DNA from: Alphaproteobacteria bacterium
Lineage (GTDB): Bacteria; Pseudomonadota; Alphaproteobacteria; Kiloniellales; DSM-21159
DNA length: 64,000 bases
Assembly (NCBI GenBank): GCA_030433005.1
Contig: JAUILQ010000019.1
Location: forward strand, 1 to 64,000
Direction of reading: 5' to 3'
Position numbers and translations under genes: made by a program. The notes under the pieces were generated by a model. That model was not told where the DNA came from, ran no database searches, and saw only the letters and a program-made list of their open reading frames with translations. This document shows, piece after piece, positions 21,063 through 51,969 of the stretch; the stretch's first letter is position 1; every line of letters begins with the position of its first letter.

Positions 21063-22043
21063 ATGCTGATCAAGCGCAAACGCGGCTGGGAGCTGCCCGA
21101 GAGCCAGGCGACGCCGGAGTCGGTCTACCTGCAGCGCCGCCGCCTGATGCAGGGCCTGGCGGCCGGACCGCTGCTGCTCGGCGCGGCCGCGCTGGCGGGG
21201 CGCGGCAATCCGCTGGCGGCGGCGACCGGCGACGCGGACCCCTCCGCCGAGCTCTATCCGGTCAAGCAGAACATGCGCTATCGCCTGGACCGCGAGATCA
21301 CCGACGAGTCGCTGGCGACGACCTACAACAATTTCTACGAGTTCGGCTCCTCGAAGAACATCTGGCGCGAGGCGCAGGACCTGCCGATCCGGCCCTGGAG
21401 CGTGGCGATCGGCGGCCTCGTCGAGAAGCCCTTCGAGATCGGCATCGACGAGCTGCTGGCGAAGATGCCGCTCGAGGAGCGGCTCTATCGCCACCGCTGC
21501 GTCGAGGCCTGGTCGATGGCGGTGCCCTGGTCGGGCTTCGCGCTCGGCGAGCTGGTCAAGCTGGCCAAGCCGCTGTCCTCGGCGAAGTACGTGAAGATGG
21601 TCACGCTGGAGGACCGCGACGTGATGTCGGGCCAGCGCGCCGGCTGGTACCCCTGGCCCTACGTCGAGGGCCTGACGATGGCGGAGGCGACCAACGAGCT
21701 GGCGTTCATCGCCACCGGGCTCTACGGCAAGCCGATGCCCAAGCAGAACGGCGCGCCGCTGCGCCTCGCGGTGCCCTGGAAGTACGGCTTCAAGTCGATC
21801 AAGTCGATCGTCGCCTTCGAGTTCACCGAGGAGCGGCCGGTGTCCTTCTGGGAGGAGATCCAGGCCCGCGAGTACGGCTTCTGGGCCAACGTCAACCCGG
21901 AGGTCCCGCACCCGCGCTGGAGCCAGGCGACCGAGCGGGTGCTCGGCACCGACGAGAAGGTGCCGACGCTGCTCTACAACGGCTACGGCGACTACGTCGC
22001 CGGGCTCTACGCCGGCATGGAGGGCGAGAAGCTCTTCATGTAG
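21063..22043 (+). CDS. msrP: protein-methionine-sulfoxide reductase, molybdopterin catalytic subunit
   Basis: Tat-type RRRLMQGLAAGPLLLG; YRHRCVEAWSMAVPWSGF; VPWKYGFKSIKSI. Confidence 0.95.
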   Translation: MLIKRKRGWELPESQATPESVYLQRRRLMQGLAAGPLLLGAAALAGRGNPLAAATGDADPSAELYPVKQNMRYRLDREITDESLATTYNNFYEFGSSKNIWREAQDLPIRPWSVAIGGLVEKPFEIGIDELLAKMPLEERLYRHRCVEAWSMAVPWSGFALGELVKLAKPLSSAKYVKMVTLEDRDVMSGQRAGWYPWPYVEGLTMAEATNELAFIATGLYGKPMPKQNGAPLRLAVPWKYGFKSIKSIVAFEFTEERPVSFWEEIQAREYGFWANVNPEVPHPRWSQATERVLGTDEKVPTLLYNGYGDYVAGLYAGMEGEKLFM

Positions 22044-23126: not shown

Positions 23127-23158
23127 AAGGGGCCGTCCTTCGGGGCGGCCCCTTTTTC
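23127..23158 (+). terminator. intrinsic terminator of the OmpA gene
   Basis: AGGGGCCGTCC-TTCG-GGGCGGCCCCT followed by TTTT. Confidence 0.85.
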
Positions 23159-23222: not shown

Positions 23223-23253
23223 AAAAAAAAATGCCGGGCCACGAGGGCCCGGC
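23223..23253 (-). terminator. strong intrinsic terminator on the minus strand
   Basis: Plus strand AAAAAAAAATGCCGGGCCACGAGGGCCCGGCA, i.e. minus-strand hairpin followed by T-tract. Confidence 0.85.
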
Positions 23254-23360
23254 AAGTTGAACAGGGAGGCTTCACGTCTGGGAGACGTCGGGGCCGCCGT
23301 AGCGGTCCCGTCGGGGCGCAGATCGCGATCGGGGGGAGAGAGATCGCGCCCCTCGGAGAT
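23223..23360 (-). ncRNA. candidate trans-acting sRNA, AbcR/CU-rich-loop type (5' end not determined)
   Basis: Minus strand: GGGGCGC-GATC-TCTCTCCCCCC-GATC stem-loop, ACGTCT-CCC-AGACGT hairpin, single-stranded GAAGCCTCCCTGTTCAACT, then TGCCGGGCC-CTCG-TGGCCCGGCA plus T9 terminator; downstream of a VtlR/LsrB-like gene. Confidence 0.55.
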
Positions 23361-23674
23361 GCGCCGCGTGTTGCGACGCAACATCCTCTGAACGGAAAAT
23401 GGCGCCGGAAGGTTCCCCTGTCGAGTTGCAAGAGGGCAGTGGTGGCATGCCGTTGTTGCATGGCTACACCGCCGTAGCAATTTTGCAACAGGCCTTGGGC
23501 CGGCCGGCCCCCGTCTCGCGGGAAGCCGAGCCCCTGTCCGCCGTTGCGGCTCGGAATCCTATCCTATGCTGTGGCGCCGAGGGCGCAGTGCCGTGCGCCC
23601 GGTTGGTCGCTCCGCGTGCGCGACGGCAACCCTGGCGGGCAATTCGCCCGTGCCGCCCGCCACGGCGGCGGCGC

Positions 23675-24571
23675 TCAGAACTTCGTCTGGGCGACCTCGC
23701 GCAGCAGGAAGTCGCGGAACACCTCGACCCGCTGCGTGCCGCGCAGCTCCTCGGGGTAGACGAAGTAGGCGTCGATGCGCGGGCCCTCGAGCTCGGGCAG
23801 CACCTCGACCAGCTCGCCGCCCGGCTGCACCATGAACTCGGGCAGCGCGCCGATCCCGGCGCCGGCGGCGACCGACTGCATGATGGCGTAGACGTTGTTG
23901 ACCGTCATGACCGCGCGGCGCGGCGACTGCTCGCGCTCGCCGACCTTGAGCAGCCAGTTGACCTCGGGCACCGGCGGGCGCTTGTCCTCGCCGTAGACGA
24001 TGAGCCGGTGGTTGTCGAGCTCGGCCGGCTCCTTGGGCATGCCGTAGCGCTTGATGTAGCCGGTCGAGGCGTAGGCGTGCATGTGGCTGGTCAGGATGTG
24101 GCGCTGGATCAGGTCGCCCTGGCGGGGCGGCGACATGCGGATCGCGATGTCGGCCTCGCGCATCGACAGGTCCAGCTCCCGGTCGTCCAGGATCAGGTGC
24201 AGCTCGATCTCAGGGTAGACCTCCATGAACTCGCGCACGCGCGGCGCCAGCCAGGTCGAGCCGAAGGCGACCGTCGTGGTCACCTTGAGCAGGCCCTGCG
24301 GCCGGTCCTTGCTCTCGCCGAGCAGCGCCTCGGTCATCGCCAGCTTGCCGAAGACCTCGTGGGCGGTGCGGTAGAGCAGCTCGCCCTGCTCGGTCAGGAT
24401 CAGGCCGCGCGCGTGGCGATGGAACAGCGGCACCCGCAGGCTCTCCTCCAGCGCGCTGATCTGGCGGCTGACCGCCGACTGGCTGAGGTTCAGCTGCTCG
24501 CCGGCATGGGTGAAGCTGCCGGCCTCCGCAACGGCATGGAAGATCCTCAGCTTGTCCCAGTCCATCGCCAT
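23675..24571 (-). CDS. LysR family regulator (VtlR/LsrB-like)
   Basis: MAMDWDKLRIFHAVAEAGSFTHAGEQLNLSQSAVSRQISALEE; downstream of trxB on the same strand. Confidence 0.9.
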   Translation of the reverse strand: MAMDWDKLRIFHAVAEAGSFTHAGEQLNLSQSAVSRQISALEESLRVPLFHRHARGLILTEQGELLYRTAHEVFGKLAMTEALLGESKDRPQGLLKVTTTVAFGSTWLAPRVREFMEVYPEIELHLILDDRELDLSMREADIAIRMSPPRQGDLIQRHILTSHMHAYASTGYIKRYGMPKEPAELDNHRLIVYGEDKRPPVPEVNWLLKVGEREQSPRRAVMTVNNVYAIMQSVAAGAGIGALPEFMVQPGGELVEVLPELEGPRIDAYFVYPEELRGTQRVEVFRDFLLREVAQTKF

Positions 24572-24714: not shown

Positions 24715-25683
24715 CTACTCGGCCGCCTCGGCGGCCGTGTCCTCCTGTTCGGCCAGGAAACGCTCGGCCTCCAGCGCGGCCATGCAGCCCATGCCGGCGG
24801 CCGTGATCGCCTGGCGGAAGATCTTGTCCTTCACGTCACCGGCGGCATAGACGCCGGGAATCTGCGTCGCGGTCGAATCGGGGGCGGTCAGGATGTAGCC
24901 CTCCGAGTCCATCTCGAGCTGGCCGCGGAACAGGCCGGTCGCCGGATCGTGGCCGATCGCCACGAAGAACCCGTCGACGGCGATCTCGCGGGTCGAGCCG
25001 TCGATCACGCTCTTCAGCCTGAGGCCGGTAACGCCCGGCGGGTTGTCATCGCCCAGCACCTCCTCGACGACGCTGTTCCAGACGACCTCGATCTTCGGGT
25101 GGCGCAGCAGCCGGTCCTGCATGATCTGCTCGGCGCGCAGGCTGTCGCGCCGGTGGATCAGGGTCACCTTCTCGGCGAAGTTGGTCAGGAACAGCGCCTC
25201 CTCGACGGCGGTGTTGCCGCCGCCGACCACCGCGACCTGCTTGCCGCGATAGAAGAAGCCGTCACAGGTCGCGCAGGCCGAGACGCCGGCGCCCTGGAAC
25301 TTCTGCTCGCTCGGCAGGCCGAGCCAGCGCGCCTGGGCCCCGGTGCAGATAACCAGGGTTTCGCCCTCGTAGACGTCGCCGGAATCCCCGATGCAGCGGA
25401 ACGGCCGGCGCGACAGGTCGACCTCGACGATGGTGTCGAACTTGAGGTCGGTGCCGACGTTCTTCGCCTGCTCGCCCATCTGCTCCATCAGCCAGGGCCC
25501 CTGGATGGCCTCGGCGAAGCCCGGGTAGTTCTCGACGTCGGTGGTGATCGACAGCTGGCCGCCGGGCTGCAGGCCCTGGACCAGCAGCGGCTTCAGGTTG
25601 GCGCGCGCGGCGTAGATCGCGGCCGTGTAGCCGGCCGGCCCGGATCCGAGGATCAGGACCTTGGTGCGGTGGGTCTGGGACAT
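24715..25683 (-). CDS. trxB: thioredoxin-disulfide reductase
   Basis: LILGSGPAGYTAAIYAARANLKPLL; CATCDGFFYRGK; GVYAAGDVKDKIFRQAITAAG. Confidence 0.96.
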   Translation of the reverse strand: MSQTHRTKVLILGSGPAGYTAAIYAARANLKPLLVQGLQPGGQLSITTDVENYPGFAEAIQGPWLMEQMGEQAKNVGTDLKFDTIVEVDLSRRPFRCIGDSGDVYEGETLVICTGAQARWLGLPSEQKFQGAGVSACATCDGFFYRGKQVAVVGGGNTAVEEALFLTNFAEKVTLIHRRDSLRAEQIMQDRLLRHPKIEVVWNSVVEEVLGDDNPPGVTGLRLKSVIDGSTREIAVDGFFVAIGHDPATGLFRGQLEMDSEGYILTAPDSTATQIPGVYAAGDVKDKIFRQAITAAGMGCMAALEAERFLAEQEDTAAEAAE

Positions 25684-25818
25684 CTGCGTTCCGGAAGCGC
25701 TTGGGGTGAGCAATCCATCCGAGGATAGGTAGCCGCTGCCGCCGGCGCAAGGCGAGCCGGCCCGGCCGGCCGAAAGGCTGCCGGCCCTGCGGGCCGCCCG
25801 GGCTCGACCCGGCCGGGC

Positions 25819-50714: not shown

Positions 50715-51884
50715 CTACATCGCGCAGCCGTTGACGGGATCGCGCACCGCCTCGACCGTGCCCAGAAGCTTCTGGGTCAGGCCGTCGCTGCCGGCGACCG
50801 TCTCGAAGACGTAGATGTTCTGCACGATGTTGTTGGTCGCCGGGTCGATCTCGACCGGCCCGCGCGGGCTGGTGAAGCTGACCTTGGACAAGGCGGCGGC
50901 CAGCGCCTCCTTGTCGGTGGCGCCCGACTTGATCGCCTCGACCAGCGCCTGGCCGGCGTCGTAGCCCTGCACGGCGTACTCCGACGGCGCCTTGCCGTGG
51001 TCGCGGGTGTAGGCCTCGACGAAGGCCTTGTTCTCCGGCGTGTCGAGCGTCGGGATGTAGTGCAGGCCGGCGATCACGCCCTCGGCGGCCGGCCCCTCGG
51101 CGTTGACGTAGAGCGGCGAGGTCAGGAAGCCCGAGCCGTAGAGCGGCACCTCCTCCGACAGGCCGAAGCTGGCGTACTGCTTGACGAAGGAGATCGCCTC
51201 GCCGCCGGCGTAGAACACGAAGATGGCGTCGGGACCGGCGGCCTTGGCCTTGGTCAGGTAGGGGCCGAAGTCCTTGGTCGTCTGGAAGGGCGTGAACTCC
51301 TGGCCGACGACCTTGCCGCCGGCCTCCTCGAAGGCCGCCTTGAAGTTGTCGATCATCTGGTGGCCCGCGGCGTAGTCCGGCGCCAGGGTGTAGACCGTCT
51401 TGATGCCGTTCTCGAACATCCAGGGGCCCATCGGCCGGTTGACCTGGCCGTTCGAGAAGGACTGGCGCGTGATGTAGGCGCTGCAGCGCGCGCCGGTCGC
51501 GTCGTCGTTGCCGGCGTTGGCGACGATCAGCGGCGTGCCCGACTGGTGCACGAAGTCGCGGATCGCGCCGAGCACGCCGGACGAGACGATGCCGACCATG
51601 ACGTCGATCTCGTCCTGCAGGATCAGCTTGCGCGCCTTGGACAGGCCGACCGGCGGCTTCACCTCGGTGTCTTCGCGCACGACCTCGATCTGGGCGTCGG
51701 CGATCTCGCCGCCGCGCTCCTTGAGCGCCAGCATGAAGCCGTCGTCGATCTCCTGGCCGAGCGCCGCGTAGACGCCGGAATAGGGCAGCAGCAGGCCGAC
51801 CTTGTAGTCCTCGGCCTGGCCGACCGACGGTGCCGCCAGCAGCATCGCGGCGCCGGCCAGCAGGAATCTGTTCAAGCGCGTCAT
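50715..51884 (-). CDS. ABC transporter substrate-binding protein (LivK-like), likely aromatic acid
   Basis: Signal peptide; KVGLLLPYSGVYAALGQEIDDGFMLAL; next to box cluster. Confidence 0.9.
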   Translation of the reverse strand: MTRLNRFLLAGAAMLLAAPSVGQAEDYKVGLLLPYSGVYAALGQEIDDGFMLALKERGGEIADAQIEVVREDTEVKPPVGLSKARKLILQDEIDVMVGIVSSGVLGAIRDFVHQSGTPLIVANAGNDDATGARCSAYITRQSFSNGQVNRPMGPWMFENGIKTVYTLAPDYAAGHQMIDNFKAAFEEAGGKVVGQEFTPFQTTKDFGPYLTKAKAAGPDAIFVFYAGGEAISFVKQYASFGLSEEVPLYGSGFLTSPLYVNAEGPAAEGVIAGLHYIPTLDTPENKAFVEAYTRDHGKAPSEYAVQGYDAGQALVEAIKSGATDKEALAAALSKVSFTSPRGPVEIDPATNNIVQNIYVFETVAGSDGLTQKLLGTVEAVRDPVNGCAM

Positions 51885-51969
51885 TCCCGTCCTCCCTCGT
51901 TCGCCCGGCCGATGCGGCCCCGGCTTGTTCTTCTCGCCGGGACGGTACCCGAGCCGGCGGGGTTGGACA

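Follow-up and report, generated by a model that had tools for sequence, protein, structure and literature searches.

The minus strand of the window (the whole 64,000-nucleotide stretch of the alphaproteobacterial contig that was analysed) encodes, between 23223 and ~23390, a real small RNA (sRNA) gene, recognized computationally by its conservation, synteny, promoter box, structure and seed. It apparently represents an undescribed, class-wide family of AbcR-like sRNAs. We infer that the gene is expressed and, with a probability of about 0.73, that its product is a trans-acting, probably Hfq-assisted sRNA, the non-rhizobial counterpart of AbcR1, which is activated by LsrB and blocks the translation of transporter mRNAs. 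Under this reading, LsrB, a LysR regulator with a link to redox whose gene follows trxB and lies just upstream of the sRNA, would bind a GCAT box at about -60 and activate transcription, which would start at ~23390 and stop at the 23223 terminator; CUCCCA, enclosed in a tight hairpin, and the unpaired CCUCCCUGUUC would then serve as the two anti-Shine-Dalgarno elements of the RNA, both of which would pair with GGGAGG-type ribosome-binding sites and so block translation, the main targets being the mRNAs for substrate-binding proteins of ABC and TRAP transporters.

Organization and conservation of the small RNA gene

The ompA-like gene and the LysR gene are convergent, and the gap between them contains the strong minus-strand terminator that the original prediction had placed there (Table 1). 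The region has two terminators, the second being that of ompA on the plus strand, compared with 0.6 expected in shuffles. Along the minus strand, the 3′ core consists of the invariant hairpin ACGU-CUCCCA-GACGU, the likewise invariant open stretch GAAGCCUCCCUGUUNNACUUGCC and the terminator with its covarying stem, so that the predicted hairpin (ACGUCU-CCC-AGACGU) and the predicted unpaired stretch before the terminator were both recovered, as were the several CUCCC anti-Shine-Dalgarno motifs, namely, the exact M1 motif CUCCCA in the hairpin and a second CUCCC stretch. In the fold of the 78-nt core (z -3.5; beaten by one of 200 shuffles), CUCCCUGUU of the seed is unpaired, and the 178-nt stretch has a folding z of -5.3 versus shuffles. 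The full-length fold of the window RNA, in which the 5′ end pairs with the seed, counts against the preferred reading. The span originally given, 23223 to 23510, holds at its 3′ end, whereas beyond the core and the predicted transcript it covers promoter sequence.

Table 1. Features of the sRNA locus and its surroundings, in window coordinates
Feature	Position	Strand	Basis or comment
msrP, methionine sulfoxide reductase	21063-22043	+	
ompA-like gene	ends 23100	+	own terminator 23127-23154
Conserved sRNA core: hairpin, open seed, terminator	23223..23296	-	41-sequence alignment, covariance model
Predicted full transcript, ~168 nt	23223..~23390	-	from -10 position and LsrB-type box ~60 nt upstream
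Intrinsic terminator with U tail	23223..23254	-	stem 23232-23254, then 9 T
Single-stranded anti-Shine-Dalgarno seed GAAGCCUCCCUGUUCAACUU	23254..23273	-	near-invariant in alignment
Hairpin ACGU-CUCCCA-GACGU with AbcR M1 motif CUCCCA	23274..23288	-	invariant in 41/41 copies
Variable middle hairpin with CUCUCUCCCCCC (GGGGCGC...GCGCCCC, C-rich loop)	23313..23352	-	sequence present
5′ hairpin GATGTTGC...GCATC	23358..23385	-	equivalent hairpin in relatives; window copy with insertion
sRNA promoter region	23396-23450	-	
Promoter-like hexamers	23396..23424	-	-35 TCGACA (23419-23424), 17 nt, -10 CATTTT (23396-23401)
LsrB/VtlR-like box GCATGCCACCACTG	23437..23450	-	GCAT and T at position 13 match; inner TG does not
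LsrB/VtlR-like LysR regulator	23675..24571	-	321 bits over 293 aa to PDB 9HH1
trxB, thioredoxin-disulfide reductase	24715..25713	-	TIGR01292 above cut-off; upstream of LysR gene
Predicted target: liv-type substrate-binding protein	50715..51884	-	Peripla_BP_6 2e-84
Leader of liv-type substrate-binding protein: GAACGAGGGAGGACGGGAATG	51882-51902	-	

The 5′ part of the RNA is more variable. The GGGGCGC...GCGCCCC hairpin with a C-rich loop, also predicted from the window, does exist but is kept only in the sister genome and not beyond the genus, the other relatives having different hairpins at this place, and is not a conserved functional element. The 5′ hairpin of the relatives reads GATGYTGC-NNN-GCARCATC in most copies, ~64 nt past the start of the GCAT box, and occurs in 49 distinct forms with 94% pairing and both compensatory and G-U changes; given that these copies were picked by a pattern fixing part of the stem, the counts lean towards a hairpin. 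A DNA operator was considered for this palindrome and rejected, because the G-U pairs at several positions, along with the compensatory changes, favor an RNA hairpin.

A DNA search matched the sRNA in 56 of 60 genomes from the same order, and the longer of these matches define a conserved part of 74 nt. When 41 copies are aligned, 36 columns are invariant, among them the entire hairpin and almost the whole seed; these findings bear out the proposal that the locus is an sRNA gene. The terminator stem varies freely in the alignment, with 98% of the cells paired and compensatory double changes in five of the eight pairs. A conserved loop and seed combined with a covarying terminator is the pattern expected from selection on a trans-pairing RNA.

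Beyond the order, a covariance model (R1) matched the sRNA in 154 of 289 genomes sampled across the class, and in a sample of the phylum every strong match belongs to this class, other classes contributing just two weak matches (25-28 bits). The named carriers are Azospirillum, Thalassospira, Kiloniella, Magnetovibrio, Pelagibius, Nisaea, Reyranella, Roseomonas and related lines of acetic-acid bacteria, Minwuia, Inquilinus and Caedibacter. Because Rhizobiaceae are apparently missing from the class sample, where the best LsrB identity is 54%, named records of S. meliloti and R. leguminosarum were used for this family.

In distant members of the class, the RNAs downstream of lsrB have several hairpins with CUCCC loops, and as many as three copies stand in tandem; this suggests that one conserved circuit houses a rapidly changing family. 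Three such loci (L523, L524 of genome G225 and L525) have as many as three sRNA copies in tandem downstream of lsrB, and before each copy stand further hairpins with CUCCC loops that form an anti-Shine-Dalgarno comb. At four other loci (L231, L232, L241 and L541), lsrB is followed by no recognizable sRNA or CUCCC cluster; these lineages thus seem to have lost or relocated the circuit.

The genome that contains the window also carries a paralog (G000:C52:48018-48095, equivalent to L031:1519-1596, plus strand) with the same seed (GACGCCUCCCUGUUCAACUUGCC) and a different 5′ hairpin. It lies downstream of a cbiB/cobD gene and is present in several relatives. BjrC1505 matches it weakly over the full length (30 bits), and RFMSmelC671 may be its counterpart. 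In two genomes (L032:1383 and L033:1394, both plus strand), a seed-like GAAGCCTTACCCTGTCAACTTGCCG is found on the opposite strand, ~150 nt from the cbiB-linked paralog.

The LsrB-type regulator and the promoter

The LysR gene that follows trxB was correctly assigned to the LsrB/VtlR type: PDB 9HH1, its match, is the full-length structure of A. tumefaciens LsrB, the next PDB match scores 123 bits, and the identity with the Agrobacterium LsrB is ~50%. The positions of both loci could be compared in 104 class genomes. In 85 of these, the sRNA follows an lsrB/vtlR-like gene of the same strand at a distance of up to 1 kb, and in eight the two are 1-5 kb apart, the median distance being 229 nt; among named-locus copies with enough upstream sequence, an LsrB-like gene ends within 1.5 kb of the sRNA in 75 of 92. 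The next gene on the other strand is often msrP, convergent and downstream of lsrB in 32 related loci, so that trxB-lsrB-(sRNA)-msrP is a recurrent redox cluster.

A conserved GCATRNC...TG box is located ~60 nt before the predicted sRNA start. GCATRNC is present in 140 of the 183 upstream regions, against a shuffle mean of 14; the box consensus is GCATr.C.g...TG, followed by a -35-like T.G (27-29) and a -10-like element whose end is at ~54, and at the family level the G at 9, the T at 13 and the T of the -10 element at 54 are found in 54%, 79% and 72%, respectively. The LsrB/VtlR box of S. meliloti abcR1, GCAT-N3-TG-N3-T at -61 to -49, has been established by deletion and gel shift (PMC8844928, PMC7486931), and in the S. 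meliloti record it reads GCATGGCTGTCATG, ~61 nt before the ar15 gene. The family box agrees with the published one in sequence and position, the window copy being a partial match. The spacing and position of the window hexamers match the conserved -10 of the relatives; the hexamers themselves are weak, as a general promoter scan gives none there. The missing inner TG and the weak -10 of the window copy weigh against the preferred reading. The box also persists at loci whose lsrB is non-adjacent or 2 kb off (L020, L026-L028, L061, L063, L160), which indicates that the sRNA has its own promoter. A match to the promoter of the general-stress sigma factor EcfG (GGAAC-N17-CGTTC, 23390-23416, minus strand) overlaps the predicted start; it is not conserved in relatives and was therefore taken as chance.

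Predicted targets and function

The seed string CUCCCUGUU is complementary to the Shine-Dalgarno-like string AACAGGGAG, and Hfq is encoded in the genome. Shortly before ATG, AACAGGGAGG occurs 178 times in the 60 genomes, compared with 104 occurrences of the permuted ACAAGGGAGG and 132 of AACAAGGAGG, the second control, which was added because ACAAGGGAGG retains a 7-nt complement of the seed. Substrate-binding proteins, labeled by eye from the N-termini with Pfam tallies as a check, make up 46 of the 78 downstream ORFs for AACAGGGAGG, 33 of 67 for ACAAGGGAGG and 23 of 61 for AACAAGGAGG; the control with the retained seed complement is equally rich in these proteins. Clustering at 50% identity lowers the enrichment to p = 0.06, with 33 of 62 versus 19 of 54 in the mismatch control. 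Substrate-binding protein genes carry strong Shine-Dalgarno sites regardless, which counts against target specificity, and specificity beyond Shine-Dalgarno strength is, on these counts, only suggestive. Repression of transporter mRNAs is the best-supported candidate function, although one not cleanly separable from strong ribosome-binding sites.

In the genome of the window, CAGGGAGG sites are located ahead of the genes for six substrate-binding proteins and a TRAP permease, and ahead of a phbB-like gene. The liv-type transporter of the window had been proposed as a potential target, and the ribosome-binding site of its substrate-binding protein could indeed pair with the sRNA: GAACGAGGGAGG precedes the start, and the predicted duplex of the leader with the seed has an energy of -19.6 kcal/mol, the seventh among the window ORFs, which makes this mRNA a putative target. 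Acetoacetyl-CoA reductase (phbB-like) genes in four genomes (L512, L275, L282, L358) have AGGGAGG ribosome-binding sites that are pairable with the seed; phbB-like mRNAs, with their tie to PHB synthesis, may be a recurrent target outside the transporters.

Alternative readings and relation to known small RNA families

At the gathering score, Rfam models detect only a tRNA in the whole window; the sRNA is absent from Rfam, with SorX and mmgR scoring below gathering and ar15 giving nothing. The original prediction had pointed to AbcR/alpha-r15, and in this respect it was not borne out: the ar15 model (RF02345) matches nothing in the genome at E <= 10, nor is it among the matches of the region up to E 10, and nothing above the cut-off was found across the 289 class genomes. 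Conversely, real ar15 copies, which score 106-127 bits with their own model as a positive control, reach at most 5.8 bits with R1; accordingly, membership in AbcR/ar15 was rejected. Membership in SorX (RF02784; 39.5 bits, E 7.6e-8, gathering 46.6, relatives up to 42) and in mmgR (RF00519 suhB; 31.0 bits, gathering 41) was likewise rejected.

Both of these sub-threshold matches are full-length and the layouts are similar, with CUCCCU and a terminator, so that inclusion of the sRNA in one of the two families has to be weighed; it is improbable because both scores are below gathering, the same genome has a separate, genuine mmgR elsewhere (L102:1495-1575, plus strand; G000:C105 near 65252, 56 bits) and the published SorX is a product of the ompR-1 3′UTR. 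An origin of the same kind, with RNase E cutting the sRNA from the lysR (or trxB-lysR) mRNA, would account for its location downstream of lysR on the same strand, for the 3′ 74 nt being the most conserved and for the nearest Rfam model being a 3′-processed sRNA, but it, too, is unlikely, given the conserved box and -10 between lysR and the sRNA, the persistence of the box at loci with lsrB elsewhere or at 2 kb, and the conserved 5′ hairpin directly past the predicted start. That the locus is only a terminator with conserved flanks, without an sRNA, would fit the convergence of the plus-strand ompA from the opposite side; it is extremely improbable because the invariant loop and seed lie outside the stem, the stem varies with compensation and the distribution is class-wide.

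A further reading is that the sRNA, beyond being a functional counterpart in the same place, is a highly diverged ortholog of AbcR/ar15 by descent. The same neighbors, promoter box, spacing and CUCCCA motif, the repeated tandem duplication (Thalassospira, Kiloniella) and the divergent lsrB-downstream RNAs with several CUCCC-loop hairpins that bridge both forms speak for common descent, whereas the lack of significant similarity in either direction (ar15 model on the 289 genomes, R1 on ar15 copies) and the fact that only one of the two seeds is common to both speak against it; we give this scenario somewhat less than even odds. It is somewhat likelier to be true than false that the LsrB-to-sRNA circuit, with its sRNA family missing from Rfam and sharing ~30 invariant nt, is ancestral in this class-wide form and that the rhizobial AbcR is a derived or substituted version. 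The preferred reading, an LsrB-activated counterpart of AbcR1, holds that the sRNA probably acts like AbcR, in the same place and under the same control, yet fails the ar15 sequence test, and that, like the rhizobial AbcR RNAs, it probably silences nutrient-transporter mRNAs by masking their ribosome-binding sites.

If so, LsrB-controlled anti-Shine-Dalgarno sRNAs would be much older and wider than Rhizobiaceae and Brucellaceae, extending to Azospirillum, Thalassospira, Kiloniella, Roseomonas, Reyranella and many uncultured lines, and, should the circuit be ancestral, redox sensing near trxB and msrP would be tied to the repression of nutrient uptake across Alphaproteobacteria. The near-invariant seed is testable in tractable species, the role of LsrB outside host-associated bacteria becomes directly askable, and a gap in Rfam would be filled, about half of the sampled class genomes being without annotation at this locus. 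A literature search found no description outside Rhizobiales, which, with subscription journals mostly uncovered, is no proof of novelty; the motif letters retrieved only unrelated primers from papers.

Several known sRNAs resemble this one in part. SorX is processed from the ompR-1 3′UTR in Rhodobacter, in contrast to the lsrB-linked gene described here, and shares with it a hairpin, then ACCUCCCUGUU, then a GC-rich terminator, being the best sub-threshold Rfam match. With mmgR, whose clan CL00108 also includes ar15, the sRNA shares the CUCCCU seed, ACUU and the terminator. RFMSmelC671, a highly variable sRNA of Rhizobiales only, has a single-stranded CUCCCUGU (PMC3927594), which, as described there, lies like the present seed between variable hairpins and the terminator.

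The closest parallel is AbcR, a family described from Rhizobiaceae and Brucellaceae (PMC3712013, PMC8844928). As with AbcR1/AbcR2 of Sinorhizobium, Agrobacterium and Brucella, the sRNA lies downstream of trxB-lsrB/vtlR on the same strand, an order also seen in S. meliloti; it has the GCAT box at about -60 (at the family level, partially in the window copy), a 3′ terminator with a U tail, tandem copies in some genomes, a predicted anti-Shine-Dalgarno logic towards substrate-binding proteins and a hairpin with CUCCCA, the M1 motif of Brucella AbcR (PMC5461406), here the last hairpin before the seed rather than the 5′-most one. Unlike AbcR, it is found mainly outside Rhizobiaceae and Brucellaceae, has a different hairpin layout and no significant sequence or covariance-model similarity, and carries CCUCCCUGUUC as its second seed in place of GUUCCC/UUCCCCUC: where AbcR has M2 GUUCCC (aSD2 UUCCCCUC) between hairpins, the sRNA stretch is GCCUCCCUGUUC. 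The trxB-lsrB context, the promoter logic and the CUCCCA motif are, nevertheless, those of AbcR.
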